A stretch of DNA of 47,507 nt from a virus, in the IMG/VR virus record IMGVR_UViG_3300031754_000007, positions 1 through 47,507 of that record; one strand, written 5' to 3'. The translations under genes and the position numbers were made by a program. Below the pieces are notes generated by a model, which saw only the letters and a list, made by a program, of their open reading frames with translations, searched no databases and was not told where the DNA came from. Position 1 is the stretch's first letter. Each line of letters begins with the position of its first letter. Shown in pieces: positions 11,859 through 45,815 of the stretch.

Positions 11859-12277
11859 TATTTAGACCTCCCCGTATTTGTCAGCATGTCGCCCACAGCA
11901 ATGCCGAGCTGTGTGATTGCTTGACTTAGCGCCGTTGTATCACTCGTTACACCCGCATGGTAGCTTTGCGCCGCGGCAAGCGCTGTGTTGTAGAGATTCT
12001 CAGCCAGGAATAGGTATTTACGCCCAGCCGCAGGAAATGGCGTTTGCGAGGCATCACACGCGAAAGTCTGACCGTCGAATGTCACCGTTGGAGGGAATCC
12101 TTTGTCTGAGCATATTTCCCAAGTCTTTACGCCTATAATGGCAGCTTGTGCGTCCCCAATACTGCGCGCTGCAAAGGCATCGAAGGTATTGATCGTGCCT
12201 GGAACGGGCGCTGCGACAGGATTCTTGGTACATCCGACCGCCAGCAGTATGGCCAGCATTACCACATATAGCTTCAT
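11858..12277 (-). CDS. Lipoprotein of the lysis cluster (139 aa)
   Basis: The N-terminus MKLYVVMLAILLAVGCTKNP is a textbook lipoprotein signal: a lysine, a hydrophobic core and a lipobox ending in cysteine 16. The mature protein is soluble, has two further cysteines (EICSDKG and FACDASQ) that may form a disulfide, and a helical alanine-rich C-terminal half. Directly after the endolysin gene (ATGA overlap), a phage lipoprotein would fit an outer-membrane spanin or an exclusion lipoprotein. It is longer than typical Rz1-like spanins, so the role is uncertain. Confidence 0.7.
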   Translation of the reverse strand: MKLYVVMLAILLAVGCTKNPVAAPVPGTINTFDAFAARSIGDAQAAIIGVKTWEICSDKGFPPTVTFDGQTFACDASQTPFPAAGRKYLFLAENLYNTALAAAQSYHAGVTSDTTALSQAITQLGIAVGDMLTNTGRSK

Positions 12278-17101: not shown

Positions 17102-17554
17102 TCACACATCTCCCTTTGGCGGATCGGGTAGCGACGCAGTAATACCGCGTTGTCCTTGGTACTTCCCTCGGTATGGCTCGGCTGGAGTCGTAGTCCGCAT
17201 AAATACTAGATGAGCAAAAGGCTCTCCAATTGGCAGTGTTTGCTTAACCCACGAGGCAATCTCTAAGGTAATCTCGCCATGAAACCCGGCATCAACCCAC
17301 GTCGGACCTAAATTCGATAACCCCTTACGCGCCCAAGTAGATCGCAACCCGACCAACGCGACTAAATCATCCGGCATCTCGAAATATTCTCGTGTTGTGG
17401 CAAGGCAGAAACCCCCCTTGTCCAATTGCGTCCGTTCTGCGGAGCCAAGTACAATATCAATACCGTTTTGCTGGAATTGGGATAGTTCGACTCCTTCAAT
17501 TTTCAGTTTGCCGGTTTCGATGTACCATTTTAAATCGCGCCCGCTTAGAATCAT
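17102..17554 (-). CDS. dCTP deaminase/dUTPase-like nucleotide enzyme (150 aa)
   Basis: The core matches the dCTP deaminase and dUTPase superfamily: LVALVGLRSTWARKGL (R71, S72, R76), then a strand pair TWVDAGFHGEITLEIASW with E98 at the place of the catalytic glutamate in dCTP deaminases, and GEPFAHLVF near the end. These enzymes make dUMP or remove dUTP and so feed dTMP synthesis while keeping uracil out of DNA. Length (150) is shorter than the usual 190 of Dcd. Whether it deaminates dCTP, hydrolyses dUTP or both cannot be settled by eye. It overlaps the zinc-module gene by four bases. Confidence 0.8.
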   Translation of the reverse strand: MILSGRDLKWYIETGKLKIEGVELSQFQQNGIDIVLGSAERTQLDKGGFCLATTREYFEMPDDLVALVGLRSTWARKGLSNLGPTWVDAGFHGEITLEIASWVKQTLPIGEPFAHLVFMRTTTPAEPYRGKYQGQRGITASLPDPPKGDV

Positions 17555-22493: not shown

Positions 22494-23342
22494 TCAACCC
22501 TTAAAATCAGGACGCAGCACCATTCCGTAACTATTTACTCCGCGCGGAATCTGCGCGTCAGCCCTAAGAACTAAACGGTTGTATCTGAAAGAACTGTAAT
22601 CGACGTGATGTTGCCAGCGATTGAACTTCCATGTGATCCTCGACACGTCAGGATGCTTTTCGCACAATTCCTTCGCCATTCGATAACGCCCATCTGCCTC
22701 TAAGCCTTCGCCTGTTTTGAGATAGTGCGGGGTCATCCCACCCTTGACTGTCATTGTCGTGCTTTTTAAGGCGAGAAACGCGAGAAACAGGACTGTACAC
22801 CACCCATCTTTCAGAACTCGCAGACAAAGATCAGTGTCGTCATTATAAAAACCCTCATTCCTGTACGGTATGTCAGTTAGAATCAGCATGTTGCTGTAAA
22901 CCCTCCGGTTCTTGTAGAAAGGGGGTAATTTGTCCTTACACTTCACAAAGAAATCATAGTGACAGCCAGCAATTGCGATGTTTTCGTAGCGTTCTACGAA
23001 ATCCTCGATAACTCGAAGGAAGGTCCCGCTGCTTACCTTGACTTTGGCGTTGCGATTGAGACGAAGAAAACCCTCGATATTGTCGTCGAATGTCCAGAAT
23101 CGCCTAACTCCAGATGCTTTCGCATGATCCCAGATCCAATTTCGAGTCGGCACTAGCCCTTTATCAGAGTGAGGGAGTGTAAGCACATAATCTTTTCTGA
23201 GGCCGCATGCAAGGTATTTGTCTACTTCCTGAGGCTCAATGACAGCCTTGTACTGGACGCCTATCTTGTCAAATGCCTTCATCGTCAGGCGGCTTTCATA
23301 CCGGCCCTTAGTCGGGATATAGATCGGATAACGGCAGTTCAT
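22494..23342 (-). CDS. TET-associated-type glycosyltransferase (TAGT-like, 282 aa)
   Basis: The sequence is a close fit to TAGT enzymes: YPIYIPTKGRYESRLT at the N-terminus (GT-A fold nucleotide-binding strand), VPTRNWIWDHAKASGV, FWTFDDNIEGFLRLNRN with the metal-binding DD (residues 86-87), YNDDTDLCLRVLKDGWC (166-182) with a candidate catalytic acid, and RWQHHVDYSSF near the end. In phages these enzymes sugar hydroxymethylated pyrimidines made by TET/JBP dioxygenases. No such dioxygenase is visible here. I use ATG 23342 (GGAG three bases upstream); GTG 23351 is the alternative. A TAGT-partner-like protein is encoded just before. Confidence 0.85.
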   Translation of the reverse strand: MNCRYPIYIPTKGRYESRLTMKAFDKIGVQYKAVIEPQEVDKYLACGLRKDYVLTLPHSDKGLVPTRNWIWDHAKASGVRRFWTFDDNIEGFLRLNRNAKVKVSSGTFLRVIEDFVERYENIAIAGCHYDFFVKCKDKLPPFYKNRRVYSNMLILTDIPYRNEGFYNDDTDLCLRVLKDGWCTVLFLAFLALKSTTMTVKGGMTPHYLKTGEGLEADGRYRMAKELCEKHPDVSRITWKFNRWQHHVDYSSFRYNRLVLRADAQIPRGVNSYGMVLRPDFKG

Positions 23343-23646
23343 TCTCTCCACCTTCAGCTAATATTTCGTCTTCCTCGCTCGCGCTGTCGATCCATTGCTT
23401 TTCTGCGAACATCCCAACGCCTCTAGCTCTCGCATCGCTTTCAGGGAACCAAATCCAGCGCTGATTGAGCATCACCTTTTGCCCGATCACTTTCTGAAAT
23501 TCCTTAACATCTTCAGGCGTAGAAAAATGAACTAAAAGAGTTCGATACGGCTTGAGGTTCTCGGATTTATATTCTGGCATGCCCTGCCAGTGCTCATCCC
23601 ACCACTCGCCTTTCTCGAATAACAGCGGTTGTTCTTCAGCAGCCAC
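23308..23646 (-). CDS. Small partner protein of the TAGT glycosyltransferase (112 aa)
   Basis: The core reads WWDEHWQGMPEYKSENLKPY, then TLLVHFSTPEDVKEFQKVIG and RWIWFPE, a short family I associate with phage loci carrying TAGT genes (from memory). The protein is acidic and has a C-terminal acidic tail. GTG at 23646 follows AGGAG by six bases, and its end overlaps the glycosyltransferase by 35 bases. It may bind the modified base or the enzyme. Function unproven. Confidence 0.7.
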   Translation of the reverse strand: MAAEEQPLLFEKGEWWDEHWQGMPEYKSENLKPYRTLLVHFSTPEDVKEFQKVIGQKVMLNQRWIWFPESDARARGVGMFAEKQWIDSASEEDEILAEGGENELPLSDLYPD

Positions 23647-25755: not shown

Positions 25756-25891
25756 AGGATTTCTCCGTTAAACTTCGGATATAGGAATCGTGCATCCGCG
25801 CAAAGTCCCGCTCCCGCGTCCTCTCCGCAAACTGCTCTAGCAGTTCCTTGCACATTTCACTGCCCGGCGGGATCACGTGTTCGCTGCTCAT
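25742..25891 (-). CDS. Small charged protein (49 aa)
   Basis: The frame runs [20 protein letters not shown] and FAERTRERDFARMHDSYIRS with a charged tail. Its ATG overlaps the stop of the Cys-rich gene (ATGA). No motif is recognised. Confidence 0.55.
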   Translation of the reverse strand: MSSEHVIPPGSEMCKELLEQFAERTRERDFARMHDSYIRSLTEKSYDDC

Positions 25892-26616
25892 GCGACACCA
25901 GCCAATCTTTTCATGTCCTCAAGCGCAGCTTCGTTGTCGTCAAAGAATCGACAGGGGTTGATCTTGAAGCTTGGATCGCTGGCGTCGTAAATCTTCATCG
26001 CCGCGAGAAGCGTATCGAACCTAGATTCCAGCCTCTCGCCCTTGGCTCCCGCGAGTGTTACAACCCATCCCGCTCGGCAATGAGTGTTTTGGCAGGTGTG
26101 CCACGAGTTCATTTTTAGAGCTTTGGGCTGTGACGCAGCCGCATAAACCGCCTTGTGAATGTCCGGGATTACTGGGACAATGATTGGCTCAACCGTGCTT
26201 CCCACAGGAGATGCGCCCTCTAAATCGGAGCAATCGGTGCAACGGGAGCAATCGGAGCAAACGGAGCAACCGGAGCAATCGGTGCAACCGGAGCAACCGG
26301 GGCAACCGGAGCAATCGGAGCAATCGGAGCAACGGAAGCAAACGGAGCAACCGGAGCAATCGGAGCAACGGGAGCAATCGGAGCAACGGGAGCAACGGGA
26401 GCAACCGGAGCAACCGGAGCAATCGGAGCAATCGGTGCAACGGGAGCAACCGGAGCAACCGGGGCAACCGGAGCAATCGAAGCAACCGGAGCAACGGGAG
26501 CAATCGGAGCAACGGGAGCAATCGACTAGACTATCTAGCGCCCTTTTCGCGGCTTCCTCGCTACCCCAGTATTCAACAGAACATCTGTTACCATTCGCAT
26601 CTTCAATCCAGTTCAT
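25888..26616 (-). CDS. Cys-Ser-X tripeptide repeat protein (242 aa)
   Basis: Residues 33-131 are 33 consecutive tripeptides with Cys at every first position, usually Ser second (rarely Phe, Pro or Thr) and Asp, Gly, Arg or Val third. N-terminal residues 1-32 ([20 protein letters not shown]) form a cap. The C-terminal part includes [20 protein letters not shown] and [18 protein letters not shown] recall this tail in phage proteins following pentapeptide repeats, so the repeat may substitute for a beta-helix. Regular thiols could bind metal or crosslink. It has no signal peptide. It overlaps the RHH gene by four bases and is among the first genes transcribed. Confidence 0.75.
26224..26520 (-). 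repeat. 33-unit 9-base coding tandem repeat
   Basis: The unit on the coding strand is TGC TCC nnT. Variation is concentrated in the first two bases of the last codon (GAT, CGT, GGT, GTT), with a few changes of the middle codon (TTC, CCC, ACC). All three minus frames and two plus frames stay open through it, producing long false frames rich in Leu, Asn-Arg-Ser or Glu-Gln-Ser. Confidence 0.9.
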
Positions 26617-26903: not shown

Positions 26904-29207
26904 CTACTGCGTTCTACAGTTCCCCGCAAAGCTTCCCGACATCGGACTCCACGCCTTACCCGCTACCTGAGCGAAACTCCCTGAACCATTCTTGCAGCAG
27001 ACTTTCTTGTTCGTGGCTACCAGCGTTCCACAGAAATTGTTGTTGAAGTTGAACGCGAAGATGGGAGCGGGAGCAGAAGTCGGCCCAGTTGCGCTGTAGC
27101 AGGAAGCGCGATTGAACGTTAGTGCTGATGCCGCCGTACCATCAGCCGTTGAGCCGTCCGGCGTTCCGCCCATGACGTTGAAATAGCATTGCGCTGCTGG
27201 ATTAGGATTTACATGTCCTGCCCATGCGGTTGTGTCGCACGTCCCTCCACCAGTGCACTGCGAAGTTTTTGTGCAACGTGACCCGGCGTATGTCCCCGCC
27301 GAGCATTTCCCCTCGGTTCCCCCGGTCACATCCGAGCCAATAGGAGGCCACGGCGTATTGCCGAAGTACCCCGGCTCAGATGTTAGATAGAACGAATTTG
27401 GAAGAGTATGGCTGGCTGGAATTGCGTTGCCGTATGGAATTGTCCCCGTGCAGGAATCAGAAACCGCGCTTTGGGTCGTATAACTCCCGTTAACAGTAGC
27501 GGTAGTTGAATTAGCGGAGGCTAGAATCACCGAGGCTCCGCCATTGTTAAATTGTGAGTGGGTGCAACCGCTGAAGGTTACAGATTGTCCAGCTGCCCAG
27601 TTGTTTGCAACGGTGTAGGTAGCCACCGTTGTGGTTGCGGCTACTTGAGTGACGCTCGATGTTGGAACTGGGACTTCGCTGTTGTTGAATTGAGCCGAAC
27701 CATTCACCACGTCCCAGTTGCCCCAACGGAACAGGGTGGACTGTGTTACTGGATCACTGGGAACGGGCGCGGACCCGTACCCTAGCGCGTAGATTGCCGT
27801 ATCTGAACCTGAATACGTGTTGTGATATCCGGGCTGACCCAAGATGCTTCCGATGAGGTTGTAATACCGCTGATAAGAATAAAGCTTTACCGGATTAGTC
27901 TCGCTCGTGTTCCCGTTTTGCCAGCCGGTATAAAAATCTCGGAATTCTGTAGCAAGGTGACTCGTGGAATGGATGATGTCGGCTTTCAATCCGATATCAT
28001 CGTTGCCCTCGCGTAGCTCCATTCCGTTGTCGCCTTCGTGTGAGTAGTCAGACGCCTGCATGAATGTTGGGGATGTCGTGTAGTGATCGAAAGCGGCGTA
28101 GTTATACCCGGAAACCGTGCCCACGGCGGCGTCCATTAAAAAGCAACTGGTACGGCGCTGACAGATGTTGCTTTCAATCAAATCGTTGGATGTGCCGAAA
28201 TCCTCGATGCCGTAATTCAGCGACGAGGCCGCATCACCGACGCTGCCGAAAATGTAGTTTTGGAGAAACGTAATATGGGCAGCTTGATAGGCTAGAAAAC
28301 TCGTTCGAGGCGATGGCGCAATGATTGAGCGTACGCCTTTTACCCAAGAGTCATAGGCAAAGATGACCGTGACATTAGTCGTGGCGGTGGAGTTGGTACC
28401 GTCAATTGAAACATCCTCTATCCCGTCGCCATGCACAAGGCTTGTGGTTCCACCCCACCATGCGCTTGGGCTCTGGCCGGAGGTAAAGTTTGGCATGTAA
28501 ACCCCCGGCGAGATGGTGACGTTGTTGCCAGCAATATTTGTCACTTTCGTCATCTGGCGTTCAGAGCGCCCATTACGGCCATTGGAACCGCCCGCACCGC
28601 CTTGCACCGTACACCCAACACCTGCGGACCATTGAGCTAGGCAGGCCCAAATATTTCCGGTGTCGGAGACAGGATCAAGCTGATCTATGTAGATATACAT
28701 ACCAACGGATAGATTCGTCGTCGCACTGAGCGTAATAATGGTTGTCCCTTTCGCGTATCCAGCGGTCCAGTTGACGATGTTGGTTGGCGGGCCGGGACCA
28801 TAATAGCTGAGGTCGTTTCCACCGATGCAGACGGCAGTAGTTTGACCGAGGCAATTGGCGTTCCCAGTGAACACAAGGAATGTGGAATTGGCTCCTTGAC
28901 CGCGCAGTGTGACATTGTTTGTTCCGGTGAAGTCGATTCCCGAACTGAGATTGAAGGTCCCAGCACCAAGACTCACGAACTGGTTAGGCGTACAACTGGA
29001 AATTGCGGTGTTTATCGTTGCCGCCGTTCCCGTATAAGCCGCAATAGTCGAGCCGCACTGCGTAGTTCGATTAGGAATCCCGCCCGAGACTCCGGGGATG
29101 TTAGGAGCAGCACTCCAGTCAATTGCCCGTGAGGGGTCGATGATTCCAGACCAAGCCTGCCCGAAACAGGCAGCGGTTAACAACGCGAAGATGAAGAGAG
29201 ATTTCAT
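26904..29207 (-). CDS. Secreted parallel beta-helix (pectate lyase-like) protein (767 aa)
   Basis: The N-terminus MKSLFIFALLTAACFGQAWS is a Sec signal peptide with likely cleavage after GQ. Residues about 60-370 show beta-helix rungs (NNVTLRGQGANSTFLVF, GIEDVSIDGTNSTA, LIESNICQRRTS) as in pectate lyases and tailspikes. Residues 517-589 hold a beta module shared with three other proteins here. The C-terminal part is cysteine-rich (GKCSAGTYAG, QCTGGGTCDT), suggesting disulfides. It may cut surface polysaccharide. A signal peptide is strange for a tailspike, so export before lysis or host origin should be considered. Confidence 0.75.
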   Translation of the reverse strand: MKSLFIFALLTAACFGQAWSGIIDPSRAIDWSAAPNIPGVSGGIPNRTTQCGSTIAAYTGTAATINTAISSCTPNQFVSLGAGTFNLSSGIDFTGTNNVTLRGQGANSTFLVFTGNANCLGQTTAVCIGGNDLSYYGPGPPTNIVNWTAGYAKGTTIITLSATTNLSVGMYIYIDQLDPVSDTGNIWACLAQWSAGVGCTVQGGAGGSNGRNGRSERQMTKVTNIAGNNVTISPGVYMPNFTSGQSPSAWWGGTTSLVHGDGIEDVSIDGTNSTATTNVTVIFAYDSWVKGVRSIIAPSPRTSFLAYQAAHITFLQNYIFGSVGDAASSLNYGIEDFGTSNDLIESNICQRRTSCFLMDAAVGTVSGYNYAAFDHYTTSPTFMQASDYSHEGDNGMELREGNDDIGLKADIIHSTSHLATEFRDFYTGWQNGNTSETNPVKLYSYQRYYNLIGSILGQPGYHNTYSGSDTAIYALGYGSAPVPSDPVTQSTLFRWGNWDVVNGSAQFNNSEVPVPTSSVTQVAATTTVATYTVANNWAAGQSVTFSGCTHSQFNNGGASVILASANSTTATVNGSYTTQSAVSDSCTGTIPYGNAIPASHTLPNSFYLTSEPGYFGNTPWPPIGSDVTGGTEGKCSAGTYAGSRCTKTSQCTGGGTCDTTAWAGHVNPNPAAQCYFNVMGGTPDGSTADGTAASALTFNRASCYSATGPTSAPAPIFAFNFNNNFCGTLVATNKKVCCKNGSGSFAQVAGKAWSPMSGSFAGNCRTQ

Positions 29208-29208
29208 A

Positions 29209-29949
29209 TCAGTGGTAGAAAAAGATCGCTGACCCCTTTACCGTGAGTGAGCTTGCCTGTGTCACGCTAGGTGCCGAGCCACTAGCCGAGTTCAGCAAAT
29301 AAGCGCTGTTGAAATTATTGGTATCGTAAACCGCCGTATAGCTGCCCGTGATCGCGCTCATCACGTCGCCGCCCGTCCAAATCTGGTACTGCGCGTAATT
29401 CGTGCCTCCGGTGAGAGTGTTAGCCCCTAAAGTGCAGGTAGTGCAAGCTGCATCTGACACTGCGGTGATTGTTCCTATTGAAACCGCGCCGCCGGTGTGG
29501 GATATCTCATAAAAATGCAATGATTGGGCTGTTGGTGCAAAATCCCATGTCCACGTAAAGGTAGTGTCACCGCCGGTCGTTGAAAGAAGGTACGCGCAGT
29601 CGCCGAAAGTGTAGTTTCCTCCCGAATAATTATTGCCCCATGATGCCCCAGAGCAGTGAGTCATGCCTCCGTTGACACTGCTGAAGTTTCGAGGCCCGGA
29701 GCCGTTAAGATATCCCTCTGCTATGAGCAGCAAAGTGCTTCCGGCTGCTGTCGATGTTACAGTAATCGCGCAGCTAACCGTGGCCCCGCAAGTGGTTATA
29801 GTTTGCGCTGGATGAACCGCAGTGAAGCTGCCGACCGCCCCCGACCCTCCAAACGTCGCTCCCCCGCCAATCTTGGCCCCGCCGCCGATTACTTGAGCGA
29901 AGGAGGAAAGGGACAGAGCGAGGACAGCTGCTAGGATTCTTATTTGCAC
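29209..29949 (-). CDS. Secreted beta-rich protein (246 aa)
   Basis: GTG at 29949 follows GGGGG by five bases and opens MQIRILAAVLALSLSSFAQV, a signal peptide ending in FAQ. The mature protein is glycine-rich (IGGGAKIGGGATFGGSGAVG) and then beta-rich with paired cysteines (CGATVSCAI, CTTCTLG), and is similar in style to the 248-residue protein nearby. It overlaps the previous gene by ten bases. Role unknown; perhaps an exported adhesin-like protein. Confidence 0.65.
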   Translation of the reverse strand: MQIRILAAVLALSLSSFAQVIGGGAKIGGGATFGGSGAVGSFTAVHPAQTITTCGATVSCAITVTSTAAGSTLLLIAEGYLNGSGPRNFSSVNGGMTHCSGASWGNNYSGGNYTFGDCAYLLSTTGGDTTFTWTWDFAPTAQSLHFYEISHTGGAVSIGTITAVSDAACTTCTLGANTLTGGTNYAQYQIWTGGDVMSAITGSYTAVYDTNNFNSAYLLNSASGSAPSVTQASSLTVKGSAIFFYH

Positions 29950-32309
29950 TGATGCCCCCTGAAAGTGCCACCAAGATTGGCTTGCAGCGGAGTGGTTAAC
30001 GTCCCGTCGCCGCCCTGACATCGGATTCGCCTCTTACCTGTAGTCAACGAGAATGGCCCGTTGAAGGCGAATGTGGGTGACGGTGCGGGAATAACGTATC
30101 CGTTCGGCCTAATCTGCAACAGGAATACGTCGTTGCGGCAGGTAGAGTTGATTACGCAGTTGGCCGTGCCTGCGGTACTGCCTAGCGTCCCCTCCATGTC
30201 CGACGTGAAGTAGAGCCAATTGCCGTCCGGTGAGATTTCTCCGAGTGCGTTCTGCTCGGCAAAGTTGAGATTAGAACCGGAATTGAATGTGTGACCGACG
30301 CGCAACTCATTCGCCGTGTTCCCCGCTGAGTAGCTCGGGAACAGCAAAAAGAGTTCATTCCACATCGAACAGTTACCGCCAGCGCAGTTGGGATTGGAGC
30401 TGGAATTGAGGAACAGTCCCGTTGCGCTGGTATCCACTTGCGTTGTGAAGAAGGCAACTGGATTGGCGTCGGAGACGTTAGTGTTGAACTGGCTCGTGTG
30501 CTGATCGCTGTTCAGAACCGCCGAGAGCTGGAACTGATTCAGGTAGTTGCCGAAATTATTAAGCGGACTGGCGGATTGGTAATTTGTCCCTTTGAAGATG
30601 TGTGAGTAACCTTGACCTTCGTGGCCTGAGCAAGTTCCGCCTGACGCAGCGGTAGCAAACGATGTCCAGTGAACAGTGCCGTCAATGACGACGCCAGCGG
30701 TCCATGTAGGCTCCGTCAAGCTCTCTGTGCCAGGAGTCGTCATTTTGTAGAGGAGGAAATTGTAAGGGTAGACTCCGCCACCAAACTGATTGCCATTGCC
30801 AGAGCGCCCGGAGCCATTGCGCGGGAAAATCACCACGAGAGGCCCACCGCCAGCCGTAGGAACACCGTTGATGCCGGAGGAATTGACCGTTGCCCCAGGA
30901 GTCCAGTCCGCCTGCGCCGCGATGTGTGACTCAAGGCAACTCTGCGCCGTCATGGTCCCCACAGGCCAGATGTAGTTGCCCACGTCGGTGCTCTGGCAGT
31001 AGCCGTTGTTTTGAAAGCATCCGCCGGGGGACACGGACACATAAGCGGCTTGCTTTAACTGTGTAGCATCGTGGATCGGGAAGGTATCGGTTTCGGAGAT
31101 TGGCGTGCAAGCTCCGTACTGACCGGAGTTGTAGCTTCCGTTTGCCCCACAGAGACCCCCGTTGACTCCGACACCATTTCCTCCGTTCGTGGAGGACAGC
31201 ACCCATGTGATCGTATTGTCGGTAATCGAACCGCCGAAGGTACACGAGCCGCCGTCTAGCGAGTCCCAATTTGGCCCTGACGCTGACGATCCCGACGTGC
31301 CCCCCGAGACGGTCGTGAATACGCAATTGTGGGTGTTGTTGATGTAAGGCGCAATCTTAGCATTGGCCGCGAACACCGTGGAAGTAAGCCAATCCTGGGC
31401 TATGTAATTAGCGTTGGTATGATAAACGGTGCCATCGAAGCAATGAGCTGTGCAGTCCCCACATGAGCATGGTCCCCAATCCCCAGTGACAAGGCGAGAG
31501 TCCGTGTACCATACCCGGCAGCCTTTGCCGATCGTGTAGACGGCAAAAATATAGCCCTTATCTTGTCCGCCAGACAGAGAAAGCGCCACTCCGAAACTAG
31601 ACGCCGACCCATCGGGCTTGAATGTACCATTCCAGATGTAGGAATTAGCGGCACTGGAGAGGCAGTGTGTACCTGAAGTGAGATCGAATATTTGGGTCGC
31701 GCTGGCGATGGAAGGCGTTCCGCTGCCATTCACAGAAAGTGTCAATGCTGCTGCCTGCACTCCTTGCGTAGCTACGAATGTTCCCGTATTCACGCTGGCA
31801 AACAGATAAACCTTGAGCGGATTCACTGGATCGAACGGCATTGGGAAGCTGTATTTAAGGGCCGACGTGAAAGGCGAGACTGCGAGCGTAGACGGGTTGA
31901 AGCCTTCTATCCAGCAGTTCCCGCCGTCGCTGCATACCTCGAATAACGTGGAGTTGGAATTGGCGTTCGGGCTATTCGCCTGCCCTGCGTGCCATTCGTT
32001 GTTAGTGTTCAGGCTAGCGTCGGTAAAGCGAATGAGTTTATGAGTGCCATAGGAAGCGTCATCATAGCCGGACATGATGGTACCGACGCCATTCAGGTAT
32101 CCGCCAACGGTGCCAATATTTGCGGCTGTGACTGCCACTGTCCCACTGCCCGTGTTGGAATTGGGAACATTGATCGAGGAACAAGTCGAGGGCGTTGTAG
32201 AGCTGCATCCGGGCAAGGGGACATACGCCGATGCGTTCGAGTTGCCGGTGTATCCCTGCTGGGCAACCGCAGCGGCCACCAAAACTAAGATGGAAAATAA
32301 TCGTCGCAT
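29940..32309 (-). CDS. Large secreted protein, cysteine- and Ser/Asn-rich (789 aa)
   Basis: A signal peptide (MRRLFSILVLVAAAVAQ) precedes a mature chain rich in Gly, Ser, Asn and cysteine pairs (CSSTTPSTCSS, CSDGGNCW, CSCGDCTAHC). Repeated blade-like strands such as NEWHAGQANSPNANSNS and GNWLYFTSDMEG suggest a beta-propeller-like surface protein, but I see no clear catalytic signature. It overlaps the upstream gene by a TAATG. Acidobacterial secreted proteins look similar, so it may have been acquired from a host. Confidence 0.65.
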   Translation of the reverse strand: MRRLFSILVLVAAAVAQQGYTGNSNASAYVPLPGCSSTTPSTCSSINVPNSNTGSGTVAVTAANIGTVGGYLNGVGTIMSGYDDASYGTHKLIRFTDASLNTNNEWHAGQANSPNANSNSTLFEVCSDGGNCWIEGFNPSTLAVSPFTSALKYSFPMPFDPVNPLKVYLFASVNTGTFVATQGVQAAALTLSVNGSGTPSIASATQIFDLTSGTHCLSSAANSYIWNGTFKPDGSASSFGVALSLSGGQDKGYIFAVYTIGKGCRVWYTDSRLVTGDWGPCSCGDCTAHCFDGTVYHTNANYIAQDWLTSTVFAANAKIAPYINNTHNCVFTTVSGGTSGSSASGPNWDSLDGGSCTFGGSITDNTITWVLSSTNGGNGVGVNGGLCGANGSYNSGQYGACTPISETDTFPIHDATQLKQAAYVSVSPGGCFQNNGYCQSTDVGNYIWPVGTMTAQSCLESHIAAQADWTPGATVNSSGINGVPTAGGGPLVVIFPRNGSGRSGNGNQFGGGVYPYNFLLYKMTTPGTESLTEPTWTAGVVIDGTVHWTSFATAASGGTCSGHEGQGYSHIFKGTNYQSASPLNNFGNYLNQFQLSAVLNSDQHTSQFNTNVSDANPVAFFTTQVDTSATGLFLNSSSNPNCAGGNCSMWNELFLLFPSYSAGNTANELRVGHTFNSGSNLNFAEQNALGEISPDGNWLYFTSDMEGTLGSTAGTANCVINSTCRNDVFLLQIRPNGYVIPAPSPTFAFNGPFSLTTGKRRIRCQGGDGTLTTPLQANLGGTFRGHQCK

Positions 32310-33055
32310 TAAAGATTCTTCCCCGGCCCTATGTCTTTCCCCGGCCCTACTTCCTTCGACCCTCCGGCGGCTCCCCCTGCTTGATACATTGAAATTATTA
32401 CAGAGTTGCTAGTCTCCGTCGTCCCCACCGTGACCGTTCCCACCTGAGACGTTTGGATTGCCGACGCTACGTAATACTGACAGACTGCCGCGCGCCCAGT
32501 TGATGTGTTACTGGCATTGGCGTTGATCGTCGCAACTTGTCCTCCAATGACTGGGCTAGAATAAGACGTGACTGCCCCGCCATCGGTGGCGAAACACGCC
32601 ATCAATATCTCAGATGATTGCGCTGAAGTGTAAGTTGTGGTGGTCCAAGAAGTGCTCGTGGCGCTATTCAATCCGGCCGGATGCAAATCCAGCGTGCTTG
32701 CTCCCGAGGTCTCCATTACAACGCAGACGGTTTTTACTGCACTGGCTACATTACAGGTAACTGTAGTCGTCCCCCCAACTTCGCTTAACGTTTGGAAGAC
32801 CGTCATGTCACCAGTATTGGCGACGCCGAACGCAGCTACAATGGTAGAGAAAGAATCTCCTGCTCCAGTTGAAACGCTCGCTGCGTCTGCATGTACGCCG
32901 TTAACTACAATTGTCAATTGATCCGTGGCTGTAGTATTGCTTCCTAACGTTACGTTGCATGTCGCCGCCGCCGCCGAACAGTTACCCGCCTGCACAAACG
33001 CAGGCAGCGCCCACGCCGAGGAGCACAGCACGAGAAGGATGAGCAGCCGCTTCAA
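32309..33055 (-). CDS. Secreted beta-rich protein, TTG start (248 aa)
   Basis: TTG at 33055 overlaps the previous stop (TTGA) and has AGGAGG seven bases upstream. The product MKRLLILLVLCSSAWALPAF is a signal peptide followed by a beta-rich, Thr/Ser/Ala-rich chain with cysteines (GNCSAAAATC, VTCNVASAVKTVC) and a C-terminal tail of repeated GPGK (GPGKDIGPGKNL). Its composition matches the 246-residue secreted protein, suggesting a family of exported beta-sandwich proteins. Confidence 0.65.
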   Translation of the reverse strand: MKRLLILLVLCSSAWALPAFVQAGNCSAAAATCNVTLGSNTTATDQLTIVVNGVHADAASVSTGAGDSFSTIVAAFGVANTGDMTVFQTLSEVGGTTTVTCNVASAVKTVCVVMETSGASTLDLHPAGLNSATSTSWTTTTYTSAQSSEILMACFATDGGAVTSYSSPVIGGQVATINANASNTSTGRAAVCQYYVASAIQTSQVGTVTVGTTETSNSVIISMYQAGGAAGGSKEVGPGKDIGPGKNL

Positions 33056-33147
33056 TTCATCCCCTCCTGATAAACCGCCACCCTAGCCTGATATTGAGGC
33101 GAATTCGCTGCGGTTACACTATATTGCACATTGGTGAATATTTTCAT
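33052..33147 (-). CDS. Small protein between secreted-protein genes (31 aa)
   Basis: AGGAG lies seven bases before the ATG at 33147. The peptide is MKIFTNVQYSVTAANSPQYQ followed by ARVAVYQEGMN, soluble and without a signal. Its stop overlaps the TTG of the next gene, so its main job may be to couple translation. Confidence 0.5.
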   Translation of the reverse strand: MKIFTNVQYSVTAANSPQYQARVAVYQEGMN

Positions 33148-33156
33148 ATTGTTCTC

Positions 33157-35505
33157 CTATTGAATTCTTGTAACTGCTGCTCTCAGCGAGTAAGTTCCTG
33201 TACCAGTTGAACAGGCGGTATATCCCGTTGCGTACTGCACCAGGCTACCATTAGTTGAAAACGTAAAATCTCCACTAGCCGACTCATTTGCGAGTGCCGT
33301 CTGGAAGGGAAAACTCGCTTGCATTGCGGTTGTAGCCGCTCCTGTCTGGGCCATCATGTTTAGAGCTACGGCAGAGTGAGTAACCGCGTTTTCATCAGTC
33401 CACGTCAATAAGAACGTCACTGATCCCGCAGTCACTACAGAGCACGCCGTACCTCCTCCCCAAAAGTTCCAGTGAACGTGATATTGACCGGCAGTATTGC
33501 AAGCTCCTGCCGCTGAAGCACAGAGAGTAGCGGTTGTAATGGCTGCCGTCTGGGCCGTCTGGTTGATGGCTCCCGGCTGCTGTCTAATCAATATTCCATA
33601 ATTGTTGGTGCCGTTCGTGGCCACCTTAAGCTCGTGAGCAGTCGAATCGGCGTACGAAGCTATAGAACTGGCTACGTTTGTGGGAGCCGTGCCTTCGGTC
33701 TGACAGCGTGCCCCTCCCGTGCCTGCTGTACACGCTGGAGGGGACGTTCCAGTGGCAATCGAGGTAAGGGCCGCGAAGTTACCGCTTTTGTCGCCGGTGA
33801 ACTGGGCAGTGTTATTCTTCGCAAAATTAAACAGAAGCGATCCGGCCGCCGAACTGGTATCCGTAACGTTAAAGTTGAGACCCATCCCGGTCAGGCCTGC
33901 GTTGTTCCAAGTCGTCTGAATTTGGTAAGCGGGAAAAGCGACAGTCCCAGTCACGCTACCCTGATTAACCCCAAATGGTGTCGCAGTTGATGCCGAAGCT
34001 GTACTGACCGTAAATTCGGTTTGATTTGCCAGGCCATTCGTAAGGGTGCCGTTTGTAGCCGCAGAGGTTTCGCCAAACGTCACGCCGTTCTGAGAGTTAG
34101 TTGTCTGGGCGACGTTGATGGTGAGAGGATTATTGCCATTTGCGATTGTAGTGATAGCCCCAGTGGCACTCACAACCTGATTGATAGGAACCGTTCCCGA
34201 GGTTAACTGACAAGTAGCGCACCCAATAGCCCCCGCCGCACTAATCGTGATTGGGGCTGTGCCACTAAGACCGGAACTGCCAACGTTGCCGATCGGCAAT
34301 TGGCCGCTTACGTCAGCGCTTCCGAGGGCAACGGCAGAAATAGTGCCCGCTACCACGCCAGCCGTATTAGTCCAGTGCATGATTCCGGTTGCCGCTGCAG
34401 TCGGCATCTGAACTTCGTAAGCGGTAACCGAGGTAGGAGCCTCCAGAACTATAGTCGATGCCGTCGCGTGGCCTTGTGCAGTACCAGCGGGGAGAGTGAT
34501 GCAACCCGCCGTCCCAGTTCCGCAATTAGCGGTAAATGTCTGAAGCCCAGACCAAGTGTTCGCGTGCCCTAAAGCCAGCGATGCAACAACCGCACCGGAA
34601 GTCGGAGAAATTGTTAGCGTTCCGTCGCTGTTTGATACCGAAGTCACTGCTCCGGTGAGAGCTTGGCATCCGATTCCAGTGGTTGTTGACCAGTTCAGCG
34701 CATGGGTGCCGTCACCGCAGTTAGAACCAAAGGCGGAGAAGGTCGGGAAATACACACGCTTCCAGTTGGTCACGCCATCTTGATAGAAAAAACTCGCAAA
34801 ATTGGGGAGGATGGTGCAGGTGGCCGAGCCATCGCACAAATCAGAATGGCCCACGTTCGGCGTGACGGTCAACGTGGTTGAAGTGTTTCGCAAAACGAAA
34901 GGCAGGTTGGCCCCAAAGCCAGCAGAAGCAATGGAAGGCAGGGCAAGAGCAGTGCCAGCCGTCCAGTCTAGGAAGTTAGCACGATCTGTAACTAGCAGCG
35001 TGGCTGGATTCGTTGCGTCTATCGGAACTCCCTGCAAGGCGTAAGCACAAGGCTGGCCCACGCCTCCAGACGGAGTGGAAACGCACGGCTGCGGAACGCC
35101 ATTCGGCCCTGTAGGTGCCGCCGTCCTTCCGATGACGTTGTTCGCTGTGGCTTGAATGTTGTCGCCCAGCACAACATTAGTCGGCTGTGTATTGCCATTC
35201 AGAGTTCCCGGCAGTGTGATAGCGGCATCAAGCGAGAGGACTGGAGTGGTTGTCCCCGTCGCTACGTCTATTTGATTGGCTGTGCCTGAAACGCTTGTGA
35301 CAGTTCCGCCGCCTCCACCACCACTTATGAGCACCCATGCGCCATTAGCGCATGTATAGAGCGCCCCGGTAGCATCGTTAACGGCTTGCTGGTTATATCC
35401 ACAAGCCCCACTTGCAGCGCCGGGGAAGTGAACCAGCGTGACATTGCCCAACTGCGCGAACGCACCACCACACGCAAACAGCAGGAATACCAGGAGTTTT
35501 TTCAT
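33157..35505 (-). CDS. Tail-fibre-like protein with a signal peptide (782 aa)
   Basis: MKKLLVFLLFACGGAFAQ is a signal peptide, followed by a cysteine pair, a glycine run and SGTANQIDVATGTTTPVLSL, a segment I associate with phage tail fibres. The middle is a long beta-rich, Ala/Thr-rich shaft with collagen-free repeats. The C-terminal 120 residues (YHVHWNFWGGG, FLLTWTDENAVTHS) look like a receptor-binding head. Overlap with the upstream gene is ATGA. The combination of fibre sequence and secretion signal is unexpected. Confidence 0.7.
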   Translation of the reverse strand: MKKLLVFLLFACGGAFAQLGNVTLVHFPGAASGACGYNQQAVNDATGALYTCANGAWVLISGGGGGGTVTSVSGTANQIDVATGTTTPVLSLDAAITLPGTLNGNTQPTNVVLGDNIQATANNVIGRTAAPTGPNGVPQPCVSTPSGGVGQPCAYALQGVPIDATNPATLLVTDRANFLDWTAGTALALPSIASAGFGANLPFVLRNTSTTLTVTPNVGHSDLCDGSATCTILPNFASFFYQDGVTNWKRVYFPTFSAFGSNCGDGTHALNWSTTTGIGCQALTGAVTSVSNSDGTLTISPTSGAVVASLALGHANTWSGLQTFTANCGTGTAGCITLPAGTAQGHATASTIVLEAPTSVTAYEVQMPTAAATGIMHWTNTAGVVAGTISAVALGSADVSGQLPIGNVGSSGLSGTAPITISAAGAIGCATCQLTSGTVPINQVVSATGAITTIANGNNPLTINVAQTTNSQNGVTFGETSAATNGTLTNGLANQTEFTVSTASASTATPFGVNQGSVTGTVAFPAYQIQTTWNNAGLTGMGLNFNVTDTSSAAGSLLFNFAKNNTAQFTGDKSGNFAALTSIATGTSPPACTAGTGGARCQTEGTAPTNVASSIASYADSTAHELKVATNGTNNYGILIRQQPGAINQTAQTAAITTATLCASAAGACNTAGQYHVHWNFWGGGTACSVVTAGSVTFLLTWTDENAVTHSAVALNMMAQTGAATTAMQASFPFQTALANESASGDFTFSTNGSLVQYATGYTACSTGTGTYSLRAAVTRIQ

Positions 35506-36188
35506 TGGAATGTAACCGATCCCGAAAGAGTTTCCGAACCAGTATGTGAAACCAGCAGACCCCGCACGAAAATTGGAGTTAGACCTGCCGGGTCATAGCG
35601 CATCGTGGTTTGTGTCCCTGAAAACGTCAGCGTGGATTGAGTGACGAAGTTAGTAGCGATCCAGGGATCGACATTGGCGATTTGAACGGCTATTACCGCT
35701 GCGGAAGGTGCTGCGCTCCAAGTCGCCTCAAAGGAAAATCCAGTTAGAGCGATGCGGCTTCCAAAGCTCGGCAGCGCCACAGGAACGCTTGCTGTCCCTA
35801 CTGTTACCGCTTCCCGAACTACAGGCGTAGGCACTTCGGCAACTCCGGCGTCAGGCGTGGATGAGATATTCGCGTTTGTCAGAGCGAAAGTGACCGTACC
35901 AATCCCGGTAGTCGCATTGATGGTTACGCCCGTCAGCGCCACGTTGGTGACGTTGAACACGCCGCTCGAAGTCTGCGTCCCAGTAACCGTAATGAACGAT
36001 CCCACGGCAGGGATATTTCCCGAGTAAACCGCGACCGTCAAGGTTGCGACGTTTGTGGTCAACGCCACGTTCGTCACATATATCAGCGTGGGTGAAATCT
36101 TATCGTTGTAAGTTCCCCAAACGTATTCCGGGGTGTGGGGATTACACAGACGGATTACGGCGAATGGTGACGCGCTAAACAGTGGCAT
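35502..36188 (-). CDS. Virion protein with shared beta module (228 aa)
   Basis: No signal peptide is present. Residues about 34-118 (YVTNVALTTNVATLTVAVYS, FITVTGTQTSSGVFNVTNV) match the beta module also present in the 45171, 40549 and 26904 gene products. The C-terminal half is another beta-rich domain (ALPSFGSRIALTGFSFEATW). Its position between internal virion proteins and the fibre-like gene fits an adaptor or baseplate-type component. Confidence 0.65.
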   Translation of the reverse strand: MPLFSASPFAVIRLCNPHTPEYVWGTYNDKISPTLIYVTNVALTTNVATLTVAVYSGNIPAVGSFITVTGTQTSSGVFNVTNVALTGVTINATTGIGTVTFALTNANISSTPDAGVAEVPTPVVREAVTVGTASVPVALPSFGSRIALTGFSFEATWSAAPSAAVIAVQIANVDPWIATNFVTQSTLTFSGTQTTMRYDPAGLTPIFVRGLLVSHTGSETLSGSVTFQ

Positions 36189-39977: not shown

Positions 39978-40552
39978 ACCGGAATATTCCTTTTTGGCCC
40001 AACCGGAGGCCGTTGCAACACTCGCCCGAAGCCGTACCCGCCCTGCTGCCCATTCCCCGCAGCTGTCCCTGATCCAGTCGATGGCTGAAGCGTTAACTGT
40101 GTCGTGCCGCCCAAAGTTACCGCCGTAGGATTAGCCCCGCCGTAATTAACCGGCCTCGCAGCATGACTTCCCGGACTCTGCGCGTAAGCTCGGAAGTAGT
40201 AAGAAACTGCTACTCCGCCGTCAGTCTTGGTTGGTAGATTCAGCACCGTTCCCCGGCTTGTTCCCAGATGAACCACATGCGGAGCTGGAAAACTTGGATC
40301 GGTATCGTGCTCAACGAAATAGTTAATATTCTTGTTAATTGGCACGTTATGAGTCAGGGTCACATGCACCAGCTCCCCAGCAGTCTTGACGTTCACGCCC
40401 TGAAGTGGTGGGGGCGTGGCTGCAAGGCCCACCGGATCAGCCGCCAGATGCGAACCTAAATTGTTAATAGCATCCTCGATTTGCTGTAGCATGTTCCGCG
40501 TAGCAGGTTCCCGGATACTCTGAAGTCCCTGCCCTAGATTTAGCTTGCTCAT
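39974..40552 (-). CDS. Putative tail or fibronectin-like structural protein (192 aa)
   Basis: After a helical start (LGQGLQSIREPATRNMLQQI) the chain has beta strands similar to an FN3 domain (HVTLTHNVPINKNINYFVEH, VVHLGTSRGTVLNLP, VSYYFRAYAQSPGS), then a glycine-rich tail ending in NIPV. ATGA overlaps join it to both neighbours. FN3-like domains in tails bind carbohydrate or stabilise fibres. Confidence 0.6.
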   Translation of the reverse strand: MSKLNLGQGLQSIREPATRNMLQQIEDAINNLGSHLAADPVGLAATPPPLQGVNVKTAGELVHVTLTHNVPINKNINYFVEHDTDPSFPAPHVVHLGTSRGTVLNLPTKTDGGVAVSYYFRAYAQSPGSHAARPVNYGGANPTAVTLGGTTQLTLQPSTGSGTAAGNGQQGGYGFGRVLQRPPVGPKRNIPV

Positions 40553-43500
40553 ACGCCACGCACGGGAGCGCTGGGCGACTTTGTGACCGTCAACTTCGCT
40601 TCGGACAATTGGAACTGTCCCGGCAATGTCACGCCGCCCGGAACCGTGACTGGATAAGTCGCATTCAAGACGTTCTGCAACCCGCGAATATTGAGCAACC
40701 CGCTCGCGCTGCTACCCGAAAACTCCAGATAAAGTCTGCTGGCTTCTACCTGCAAAGGCCGCTCTACGTTGTTTTGGAAACCTTCGAGATTCAGCTCCAA
40801 ATATTTAAAGAGCTTTCGGTGATCGCCCAGAATCGGCCCGTACTGGCCTTCCTGCTCGGCTTTCACAAATCCGTAAGTGTCATACTTGTAATTGATCGTC
40901 CCAAAATCATCACTCAGCAGGCCTGGAACTTGCGAGTAGATTTGTGAGCCGGTCGAACTACCTAAGTAAAGCGGCTGCGAGGTATTGCTGCGCGTGATGA
41001 ATGCCGCTGAGTTTGTCGGAATCTGCCAGATTGACCACTTGCGGCTGATATCCCAAGAGATTAGTTTCCCTGAAAATGCTATCTTGATCGGACCACGGAT
41101 CGCCAGCTCCTCCGACGTGTTGAGGTCTTTGTAATTCAGCATCAGAATTACATTCGGGCTTGTCGGCGTTGCCGCGGCTGCGTTCGGCAACCATTGATTC
41201 GGCGTTGGCAGCGGTACGCCAATCAGAATCTTCCGATTAGCCGTGTCATTTTTGACCCAGATGGTGTAGCCGTAAGTCCAATTGATCGCATCCCAAAGCG
41301 GCTGAATCTCCTGCGAGATTTTCACCGGCTCCGAGCCATTGAAGATGTACAAACCGCTTCGATGCGCCGTTACTGCCCATTCTTCCCCGTAATCGTAAGC
41401 ATTGATCCCGCAGGTGCCTACCTTGTTCGAGACTTCCCGGACTTTCCAGCTTGCCGGTTCATTCCCCGGACTATCCTGCGTCGAAACCATGCTGTTCGTC
41501 TTGAGAACATAGAGCACGTCATAGTTAACGAACGCGCCCAACGCAGGTTGATTGTTTTGCGATCCCACGCCCAGCGGTCCCGTAATTCCATCGAAGGCCT
41601 CAAGATTGCGGACGTAAGAGCCTTGCAATTCCGTCGTCAATATCGGCTGATTGGTTGGGTAAATATCGAATCGATCTACTAGAACAGTAGAATTGTTCGG
41701 AATCGCCGTTGCATAGAGCCTCAGAATCAAATCAGGCGGAACTTGCGTTGCAAAAGCCGTTCCTAACAGCGATTGGTTGAATATCTGAATCGCTGAGGTC
41801 ATCGCAGTAAACGGAATCGCGCAGGAACCATAAACCCGATTGAGGGTCGGTGAAAACAGGTCGATTACTAGATTTCCCGCCCCACCCGATACCGAGAGCG
41901 CATTGACTCGGATGTTGTAAGTGAAATTCGGCAGAATAATCGGGACTTGGTAGAAGTCCTGATACGCCGATTGCGTAATCAGCCCAAGAATCGCCTGCGT
42001 CGAACCTGTCGAATTGGTAATTTGGTACGAGTTCCCAAAAATCGGGGAAACTACTACCTGTCCCCCACCGCCGTTAACAGGATCAACCGTCCATCCGAGC
42101 GGAGAAGAAATTCCGTTGGTATTCGGGAGATATCCGCCGTCAAATGTCGGGTTGAGAAGGTTCTGAATCTTGTTATTCTCAAGCCCGTAGAACATCCGAT
42201 CCGCATAGGCTATTGTCCACGCCGGAGAGCCTAGTTCGACCTGCTCGAAGAGATTGTTGCCTTCGATGTCGATTGCCGTTGCCGCCAGGAGCACGGCATC
42301 GGTGAATCTAAAAGTGGCCTGCGTTGTAACGTTGTCATTGATGACCGTCGATGTGTAGGTAGTCGGCTGGCCTTGGCCCTGGATCGTTACTGGGTTAGGA
42401 ATGTAAAAGAAGTTTCCACCATTCGCTCCCGTGAAAGCAACGGCCCGGCCTATAACATTTGGAGGCCCAAGCGCAATCTGCGAAACCTGCAAAATGTTAG
42501 TGCTTCCCGATGTCTCAAAGACCACAGGCGGCGAGGGAGCGGTATAAGCTCCGTTCCGGGTAATGAAAATCGTAACCGCCTCGCGGACTCCAGAGCCGAG
42601 CTGCCCTGTAGTTGAAACCGTGCCACCGCCAGAGTTGCCAAAAATCGCATTTACACCCAAGCCAAGGTTACTTAGGCCTGGATCGAACTGGAAAATCGTC
42701 CCACTGACAATCCCATTGCCACTTTCAGATGCCGTAGTGACATTTGGGCCATTGAGCACAACCGTGAAAGTTCCCGCGCCAGCCGTCGATACTTGCGTGT
42801 TGACTACGTTGAAAATCGACGTACCGTTAACAATCGGCCCATTCGTGCATCCGGTGACTGTGACCTGGTCGTTTACCGCTGGCGCAACGCCTGAAACTAG
42901 CGTGTAGTTGTAAGTTGCAATGTTCGACGTGAGGCTAGTCGAAGTAATAGCAATCTGCGCCCCGTTTAGGGTCGCAAGTATTGTCCACACCCCGTCCCAG
43001 GATGCGCCCGTTGCCCCTGAAACCGTAACGTGATCGCCTACGTTAATCGCCGCTGGCACCGTCGTGTGCATGGTTGCCAGCGTGACCTGATACGTTCCGG
43101 TAGCCGTGTCCGGGCCGCCTACGAAGGTGTTGCCAACGCTGCCGACCTGCACCGTGAAATACCAGCGCGGCGCTCCCGAACCATGTGGCGGGAAACCTTG
43201 CCCAACTCCGGTAACGATGTAAGTTCCGGTGAGCGTGTTGAATGGGCCGGAGGTCATATTCAGATAGACCGCCCCGCCCACAACGATATTCGGGTCAGGC
43301 GCACCGAATACAGTTTCGTTCGAGTAAAACAGCGTCAGCACGTTTCCTGGGGAAGTGTTGAACGGGCCGCTTGACCAATTCACCCCCTGCCAGTGTCCCG
43401 GATCGCCAGGATCGGCTGCGGCAGCCGACTGAGTAAAGCCGTTAGGCGATGCAACCACTGGGTAAACATTGGTTCCTGCTGCCGAGCCAATGATTGAAGG

Positions 43501-43899
43501 CCCAGCTCCCGGCCCTACCTGTGAAATGCGGTCTAGATTCGATCCGTGGCGCGGTATATCGGTTCCTGCCTGCGAATTCGAGAACGCTATCCATTCTTCG
43601 TTCTCTTGCGTCGAAGATTGCGCGTAGCTATTTGGCAGGATGTTCTTGGCTATTGAATCAAGTACATGGGGATTGTTTATTACATCCTCTTCCCAAAGAA
43701 TCCCCGTCGAATCGAGCGCCAGTGCCAGCAGCGTTCCATTATCTTGACGGAACGATTTCAGGTAATTGACGCTTCCCTTCGCTGGTGGCTGAGTACACAA
43801 CGCCACCCACGCCTCGCGGACTAACGAATCGACTTGCGCGTTGGGGTTTCCGACTACATACCCTTCGCGGACTAACTGATCTGACTGCGCGACTGACAT
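40549..43899 (-). CDS. Large tail tube B-like protein (1116 aa)
   Basis: The product has a duplicated N-terminal segment (DQLVREGYV and DSLVREAWV), then a beta-rich chain with DNGTLLALALDSTGILWEED. Two copies of the shared beta module lie at residues 267-325 and 326-398. The C-terminal half contains ITGPLGVGSQNNQPALGAF and WAVTAHRSGLYIFNGSEPV, typical of large beta-propeller tail proteins. Position before the internal proteins and after the connector fits a tail nozzle or tail tube protein B. No catalytic motif is seen. Confidence 0.7.
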   Translation of the reverse strand: MSVAQSDQLVREGYVVGNPNAQVDSLVREAWVALCTQPPAKGSVNYLKSFRQDNGTLLALALDSTGILWEEDVINNPHVLDSIAKNILPNSYAQSSTQENEEWIAFSNSQAGTDIPRHGSNLDRISQVGPGAGPSIIGSAAGTNVYPVVASPNGFTQSAAAADPGDPGHWQGVNWSSGPFNTSPGNVLTLFYSNETVFGAPDPNIVVGGAVYLNMTSGPFNTLTGTYIVTGVGQGFPPHGSGAPRWYFTVQVGSVGNTFVGGPDTATGTYQVTLATMHTTVPAAINVGDHVTVSGATGASWDGVWTILATLNGAQIAITSTSLTSNIATYNYTLVSGVAPAVNDQVTVTGCTNGPIVNGTSIFNVVNTQVSTAGAGTFTVVLNGPNVTTASESGNGIVSGTIFQFDPGLSNLGLGVNAIFGNSGGGTVSTTGQLGSGVREAVTIFITRNGAYTAPSPPVVFETSGSTNILQVSQIALGPPNVIGRAVAFTGANGGNFFYIPNPVTIQGQGQPTTYTSTVINDNVTTQATFRFTDAVLLAATAIDIEGNNLFEQVELGSPAWTIAYADRMFYGLENNKIQNLLNPTFDGGYLPNTNGISSPLGWTVDPVNGGGGQVVVSPIFGNSYQITNSTGSTQAILGLITQSAYQDFYQVPIILPNFTYNIRVNALSVSGGAGNLVIDLFSPTLNRVYGSCAIPFTAMTSAIQIFNQSLLGTAFATQVPPDLILRLYATAIPNNSTVLVDRFDIYPTNQPILTTELQGSYVRNLEAFDGITGPLGVGSQNNQPALGAFVNYDVLYVLKTNSMVSTQDSPGNEPASWKVREVSNKVGTCGINAYDYGEEWAVTAHRSGLYIFNGSEPVKISQEIQPLWDAINWTYGYTIWVKNDTANRKILIGVPLPTPNQWLPNAAAATPTSPNVILMLNYKDLNTSEELAIRGPIKIAFSGKLISWDISRKWSIWQIPTNSAAFITRSNTSQPLYLGSSTGSQIYSQVPGLLSDDFGTINYKYDTYGFVKAEQEGQYGPILGDHRKLFKYLELNLEGFQNNVERPLQVEASRLYLEFSGSSASGLLNIRGLQNVLNATYPVTVPGGVTLPGQFQLSEAKLTVTKSPSAPVRGV

Positions 43900-45170: not shown

Positions 45171-45815
45171 TTACAGTGCCCGAATAAACTCAGCGCGAAA
45201 TGCTATCTGATCGGGGTTTACCGTTGCACTCCCCACAATCGCCGCAGGCAATGCGCCGGTAGATAGTTCAGCAGGCGGTGATTGCGCCGCAGCCCCGGTG
45301 AATATCTGCAAATTCCCCTGGAATGGCAATCCCGAAGCGTATGACGTAGGCAAAGCAAACCCCGTATCACCCGCGGTTCCATAGTTGGCATGAGTAAAAT
45401 TGGCGGTGAATACAGTCGCAGAAAGACTGCCCGCTAGTACGGTCAAGGTTTGACCATTGAGGAATGTTGCCGTTGTCACGCCGCTAATTAATACCTTGTC
45501 GCCCGCCGCCAAATTGTTGTTTACGGTGATGGTAACAACATTCGTAGTCAGCGCGATATTGGTTATCAACCCTCCCACCGTATTCAGGATATAAATATAA
45601 CCGGAGCCGGAAGTTGATTGAGCCTCACACCACACCGGGATCATGCTCTGCGCTTTGATCTTTTCAAGAAAATAATTCACCCGAATGCCGCCCTGGACAT
45701 AACTGGGCGAACTCCCAACGAACGTAGCTACGCCGTAAACGTTCTCACGGCGCTGCGTGTTATCAACATCATACGGAAAGCCTGCCGGGGTGACGGTTAC
45801 AGTTGCGACTGCCAT
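45171..45815 (-). CDS. Virion protein with shared beta module (214 aa)
   Basis: Residues about 80-150 (ITNIALTTNVVTITVNNNLA, GDKVLISGVTTATFLNGQTL) are one copy of the module found in three other proteins here. The first half (QRRENVYGVATFVGSSPSYV) and the C-terminus (NPDQIAFRAEFIRAL) are beta rich. It probably contributes to the tail or head-tail joint. GAGGAGGAA precedes the ATG. Confidence 0.65.
   Translation of the reverse strand: MAVATVTVTPAGFPYDVDNTQRRENVYGVATFVGSSPSYVQGGIRVNYFLEKIKAQSMIPVWCEAQSTSGSGYIYILNTVGGLITNIALTTNVVTITVNNNLAAGDKVLISGVTTATFLNGQTLTVLAGSLSATVFTANFTHANYGTAGDTGFALPTSYASGLPFQGNLQIFTGAAAQSPPAELSTGALPAAIVGSATVNPDQIAFRAEFIRAL

Follow-up and report, generated by a model that had tools for sequence, protein, structure and literature searches.

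In the usual view, folding and assembly of the tail parts of tailed phages take place in the reducing cytoplasm. The question raised by the present locus is whether the proteins with export signals that are encoded at the tail-fibre position of a late operon leave the cytoplasm, and whether they nevertheless become parts of the virion. The window, that is, the whole stretch of DNA analysed (47,507 nucleotides), is a 47.5 kb IMG/VR viral contig, the minus strand of which carries terminase, portal-like, coat-like, and tail genes. The genes concerned and their predicted leaders are the following.

35502-36188, minus strand: gp35502, the sixth gene, 228 aa, one Cys, without signal peptide.
33157-35505, minus strand: gp33157, 782 aa, tail-fibre-like, with signal peptide; mature part with 18 Cys.
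35455-35505, minus strand: signal peptide of gp33157, MKKLLVFLLFACGGAFA, predicted cut followed by QLGN; also present in L003, L008, and L002.
About 35281-35454, minus strand: conserved N-terminal domain of gp33157.
32309-33055, minus strand: gp32309, 248 aa, TTG start, predicted to be exported; mature part with 6 Cys.
33008-33055, minus strand: signal peptide of gp32309, MKRLLILLVLCSSAWA, predicted cut followed by LPAF.
29940-32309, minus strand: gp29940, 789 aa, predicted to be exported; 24 Cys.
32262-32309, minus strand: signal peptide of gp29940, MRRLFSILVLVAAAVA, predicted cut followed by QQGY.
29209-29949, minus strand: gp29209, 246 aa, internal GTG start (29949), predicted to be exported; 6 Cys.
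29896-29949, minus strand: signal peptide of gp29209, VQIRILAAVLALSLSSFA, predicted cut followed by QVIG.
26904-29207, minus strand: gp26904, 767 aa, pectate-lyase-like beta-helix protein by homology; mature part with 20 Cys.
29160-29207, minus strand: signal peptide of gp26904, MKSLFIFALLTAACFG, predicted cut followed by QAWS and placed by the Gln rule, not by the scorer's own cut.

Five genes with Sec signal peptides had been named in the original prediction. All five were present, adjacent to one another, and passed as leaders of the Sec/signal-peptidase-I type in the signal-peptide scorer, which was home-made and not SignalP; each leader has the tripartite build of a basic n-region, an uncharged hydrophobic core, and small residues at -3 and -1. 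The same test was passed by 6 of 52 plausible window genes, namely these five and the lipoprotein-like gene at 11858, and by 11 of the 870 window start codons that have 60 open codons after them. The leader predicted for gene 29209 was retained, but its start was moved from the first ATG of the ORF to the internal GTG at 29949. The paired cysteines described earlier were also recovered, with mature counts of 20, 6, 24, 6, and 18, all even, in order from gene 26904 to gene 33157. The genes are tightly packed as in an operon: the ATG of 33157 overlaps the stop of 35502, and the overlap of 29940 and 32309 is one base. Leader calls from wrong starts were ruled out, as gene overlaps confine the starts to narrow intervals, and host DNA contamination was ruled out by the location of the genes inside the phage late operon and by their recurrence in relatives.

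The relatives were gathered via alignment of a late tail/hub-like protein of the window, which served as the anchor.

40549-43899, minus strand: anchor, 1116 aa, 4 Cys, without signal peptide.

This alignment yielded 79 viral loci and 26 loci in bacterial genomes, some of the latter on contigs of 100-600 kb. The hosts were deduced from bins: nearly all genome loci of the anchor belong to Acidobacteriota bins (one bin is labelled Patescibacteria), and the phage group therefore very probably infects Acidobacteriota. No match to the anchor was obtained by tblastn against INPHARED (50,697 annotated phage records), and none by its profile against the PDB, so that an identification of the anchor with P22 gp10 or T7 gp12 was left unsupported.

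The position of the signal peptides is conserved relative to the anchor. Late-strand ORFs with a signal peptide amount to 11-43% per kb at +3 to +7 kb from it (23-43% at +4 to +7) and to 0-11% of ORFs per kb from about 10 kb upstream to 2 kb downstream, many matches in this low-frequency zone being the signal-peptide-bearing fibre genes of a prophage lineage. When a strict rule was applied (leader, [AGS]Q, and a minimum of two cysteines), at least one such protein was found in 35 of the 53 loci covered on both sides. Signal-peptide-bearing loci occur in all major branches of the anchor tree, on which 16 label changes were counted; several labels of absence are detection failures (L100, for example, has MGFLWALLALALHVVPGVVGPVHAQ), and therefore no number of gains or losses is claimed from the tree. 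A minority of the related phages has no detectable signal-peptide fibres. In one leader cluster the dN/dS was 0.61, indicating only mild constraint. Fibre-position ORFs with an unusual long N-terminus, unflagged by the leader scorer, were seen in L081 (18233-20908) and L091 (18416-21049), where a hydrophobic stretch is followed by a second one that in L091 ends with ASAFGQ.

The end of the leader is also distinctive. The dipeptide [AGS]Q stands there in 69 of 78 non-redundant signal-peptide proteins, compared with a mean of 12.9 and a maximum of 23 in control windows taken elsewhere in the same proteins, and 4 of the 5 window proteins have Gln at +1 of the predicted cut. Gln at +1 in most members is what defines the Q-rule (Bochtler 2018), and in Bacteroidetes the Gln exposed under this rule becomes pyroglutamate (PMC5837995); Acidobacteria are not mentioned in the latter paper. 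In the host bins G010 and G011 (L123-L162) Gln follows a small residue at the predicted cut in 39 of 62 proteins with leader-like N-termini, which suggests that Acidobacteriota may follow a Q-rule like that of Bacteroidetes.

That the number of cysteines is even is regarded as a mark of exported proteins with disulfide bonds (PMC7678975). With the Gln cut applied, the mature cysteine count was even in 60 of 62 complete signal-peptide proteins, and wherever the leader itself holds an odd number of cysteines the mature count was even (23/23); the corresponding p values, uncorrected for relatedness, are about 4e-16 and 1e-7. When the cut was taken from the scorer itself, even counts were obtained for 56 of 62 complete proteins, and for 21 of 21 after the loosest clustering. 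The cut rule for parity was fixed after the window had been seen, and N-terminal membrane proteins were excluded by eye from their N-termini, prior to any cysteine count. Even counts were found in 7 of 14 ORFs truncated by contig ends and in 207 of 372 phage ORFs without signal peptide, both serving as controls. In the window itself the odd full-length counts of 21, 7, and 19 become 20, 6, and 18 when the leader is taken away. Per 100 aa, the signal-peptide proteins have 2.09 cysteines, whereas the anchor has 0.70 and other ORFs have 0.77. The exported host proteins sampled were not notably even (24/48), and therefore strict parity characterises the phage proteins, not the host secretome.

A related domain is found with and without a leader. 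In the prophage lineage the N-terminal domain of the signal-peptide fibres has a conserved cysteine pair (VCxxPAxGQPC type), and in L004, L006, L007, L009, and L022 a homologous domain lies between the connector gene and the anchor with no leader in front of it. These leaderless homologues start directly at the domain and contain no cysteine in 448-452 aa (four whole proteins counted), the exception being a leaderless L002 protein with four cysteines. Because of the conserved position, the Gln at +1, and a parity that appears only with the signal peptide removed, there is strong comparative support for export of the five window proteins out of the cytoplasm, and in the mature protein the leader is very probably removed, since the cysteine parity needs this in 23 of 23 cases.

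Among the five proteins, gp26904 has a link to the host: it is 43-44% identical to exported host proteins of a pectate-lyase-like family, the leader of which ends in the same way. At three loci these host homologues sit among genes for Wzy, polysaccharide flippase, epimerase, and glycosyltransferase. The pectate lyase-like beta-helix that had been proposed for gp26904 is upheld through homology to PF12708-matching proteins and not through its own modelled fold: gp26904 is 43% identical to L180, and L182 of the same family scores 1.1e-14 to PF12708; gp26904 itself gave no direct match in Pfam, and its single-sequence AlphaFold model reached a pLDDT of 31.6. No relatives of it were found in a close-relative scan of viral contigs or by INPHARED tblastn. 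One segment of the protein is absent from six host homologues and has its counterpart in the tail operon of the same phage.

27435-27656, minus strand: insert of gp26904, about 74 residues (approximately 518-591), with a Cys pair.
45171-45815, minus strand: gp45171, cytoplasmic-type late tail-operon protein with the module found inserted in gp26904.

The match of the insert to gp45171 (phmmer E 1.2e-7) was the best among the 1967 ORFs of these phage loci. By homology, gp26904 is thus a phage copy of an exported beta-helix protein of host exopolysaccharide clusters, into which one of the phage's own tail modules was inserted.

For gp33157 the relationships are of another kind. Its N-terminal part of about 75 aa (the leader and the next 58 residues or so) is 42-58% identical in L002, L003, and L008, where the bodies differ and where a homologue of gp35502 lies directly upstream of the signal-peptide-bearing fibre gene; segments of its body match signal-peptide-bearing genes of L075, L077, L087, and L033 and one L091 ORF. 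A conserved N-terminus with a variable body is, at the level of alignment, the mosaic pattern of tail fibres. A host origin of the N-terminal domain was considered and was left unsupported by the single weak match obtained in eight host genomes. For gp29940 a weak match to the PD40 beta-propeller repeat was obtained, below the cut-off, and no homologue was present in 297 Acidobacteriota genomes. When the five window proteins were searched directly against protein families, no described family of tail fibres or spikes was matched, and gp29940, gp32309, and gp29209 are without an assigned family; among the signal-peptide-bearing relatives of the five, a few have matches in the tail spike, tail fiber, or EPS depolymerase PHROGs. 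A related signal-peptide-bearing prophage fibre, modelled from 11 sequences, reached a pLDDT of 56.6, and the best structural matches of this low-confidence model were phage tailspikes, weakly; against INPHARED this fibre gave no match. The tail-fibre-like chain and the surface-active nature envisaged in the original prediction are supported in the form of fibre/spike-like chains and a predicted exopolysaccharide-active beta-helix.

The window also contains genes through which the cell is likely to be opened; those at 11523-12774 on the minus strand are likely a lysis cassette.

12274-12774, minus strand: endolysin (GH108), without signal peptide.
11858-12277, minus strand: lipoprotein-like gene.
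11523-11858, minus strand: small hydrophobic protein.

Other genes of this strand were observed in passing. A TET-associated glycosyltransferase (TAGT, E 3e-36) at 22494-23351 suggests that the phage may have modified DNA bases, and a dCTP deaminase-like protein (PF22769, E 2e-20) is encoded at 17102-17554. The ORF at 25888-26616 (242 aa) consists of CS-x-C tetrapeptide-like repeats, has open antisense frames, and gave no Pfam match.

The leaders, their position, the parity, the Gln, the homology, and the module insertion are read directly from the sequence, and the timing, the periplasmic oxidative folding, the attachment to virions, and the enzymatic activity are what we infer. According to the proposed course of events, fibre/spike-type chains and a host-derived exopolysaccharide depolymerase would be exported late by Sec, and signal peptidase I would cut the leader, exposing an N-terminal Gln in most of them. 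The mature chains would then fold in the periplasm with fully paired disulfides; among eight host bins VKOR was found in two and DsbB in none. Lysis by holin and endolysin would mix periplasm and cytoplasm, after which the folded proteins could act on receptor and exopolysaccharide and those of the fibre/spike type could be added, in a final step of assembly, to particles that are otherwise complete. In P22, the tailspike is the last part to be joined to finished heads, a step that can also take place in lysates. The internal phage tail modules, the fibre position, and the occurrence of leaderless homologues in a comparable place indicate that some of the five proteins, if not all, may be parts of the virion and encounter the particle when the cell lyses. 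The favoured reading, in which exported fibres/spikes and an exopolysaccharide depolymerase undergo oxidative folding in the periplasm and are active from lysis onwards, the fibre-type ones joining virions last, is given about an even chance. Points against it are the few oxidant genes found in the host bins, the lack of a marked preference for even cysteine counts among the sampled host exported proteins, and the minority of related phages in which no signal-peptide fibre was detected. The broader proposal, that a large family of Acidobacteriota tailed phages completes its virions outside the cytoplasm with fibres/spikes exported, oxidised, and added at lysis, is put forward more tentatively, at a little short of even.

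Three other explanations have to be weighed against it. The hydrophobic N-termini might be uncleaved helices serving cytoplasmic virion assembly or membrane docking. In its favour are the general view that the virion parts of tailed phages are assembled in the cytoplasm and the fact that the tail fibre/spike genes of P22, T7, Bacteroides B40-8, Riemerella RAP44, and half of crAss001 were leaderless in the same test, where leader matches in the control phages were mainly spanin-, lipoprotein-, or membrane-like, together with one RAP44 protein annotated as structural with an Ig domain. However, 69 of 78 proteins have an AXA-type site with Gln directly after it, and this speaks for cleavage, as does the identical leader end of the host homologues of gp26904; uncleaved virion components, the finding named beforehand as fatal to the export idea, are unlikely, as 23 of 23 proteins need leader loss for an even cysteine number, and the explanation as a whole is highly improbable. 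Hardly more probable is cargo of lysogenic conversion, expressed from prophages and altering the surface of the living host. Related loci do lie on Acidobacteriota contigs of 100-600 kb with their signal-peptide fibre genes intact, but the genes are on the same strand within the late structural operon, between or directly after tail genes, which argues for late expression, and no integrase was recognised by eye in the window.

The most serious alternative is that the exported proteins never join the virion but act on their own as enzymes and adhesins, either periplasmic or released, which might loosen host exopolysaccharide, free progeny from debris, or mask receptors from progeny or competitors. 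This is the original prediction in its strongest form and a substantial possibility, distinctly below even and nearly as likely as the virion reading. All evidence for export fits it equally, gp26904 is closest to exported host proteins that are not virion parts, and precedents exist in WceF of Pantoea, an exported glycan hydrolase of tailspike fold (PMC7949094), and in the periplasmic T4 Spackle (PMC7650644). Against it stand the location of the fibre-type genes in the late structural operon, the N-terminal domains that the fibre-type proteins share with leaderless fibre-like ones of the corresponding interval in sister genomes, and the phage tail module gained by gp26904. Of the idea that surface proteins are sent out before lysis, export from the cytoplasm was supported on comparative evidence, whereas release from the cell was left without such support. 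No outer-membrane secretion signal came to notice, and in a diderm host a protein that depends on Sec only would stay in the periplasm.

Under the favoured reading, these soil phages, a widespread group without INPHARED match, appear to export by Sec, and to staple by disulfides, their receptor-binding and polysaccharide-degrading proteins. If true, this changes where and when a virion is finished, accounts for fibres that are rich in cysteine and could persist in soil, and is a warning against setting aside the signal-peptide proteins of phage genomes as contamination from the host or as accessory cargo. In addition, gp26904 points to a route by which an enzyme of a host exopolysaccharide cluster may enter the late gene set of a phage.

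In the open-access literature no report of signal-peptide fibre genes in tailed phages was found, which is weak evidence; several known systems share single features with the present one. The tailspikes of P22 (gp9) and other podoviruses are likewise encoded by the last structural late gene and are beta-helix/spike proteins acting on surface polysaccharide, and a related signal-peptide fibre, which is not a window protein, has a weak fold likeness to them; however, the P22 and T7 tail genes had no signal peptide in the same test, and no sequence homology to tailspikes was found. WceF of Pantoea stewartii (PMC7949094) resembles gp26904 in being exported and in its exopolysaccharide-gene context, its fold being a tailspike-like beta-helix, but it is bacterial and Tat-exported, whereas gp26904 is phage-encoded and has a Sec-type leader and an inserted tail module. 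In phages of Porphyromonas gingivalis (PMC10367356) host-adapted signal peptides also expose an N-terminal Gln; there they belong to five function-unassigned Q-rule genes in Bacteroidetes, and here to fibre/spike-type proteins with paired cysteines in phages of Acidobacteriota. T4 Spackle (gp61.3; PMC7650644) is a phage protein directed to the periplasm with its leader cleaved, but it is a small lysozyme inhibitor, in contrast to the late fibres and enzyme described here. Finally, signal-peptide endolysins of the fOg44 Lys44 type (PMC6116005) show a phage protein using the host Sec system, with the arrangement reversed: there the lysis enzyme carries the leader, whereas here the endolysin (12274-12774, GH108) is leaderless and the fibres carry it.
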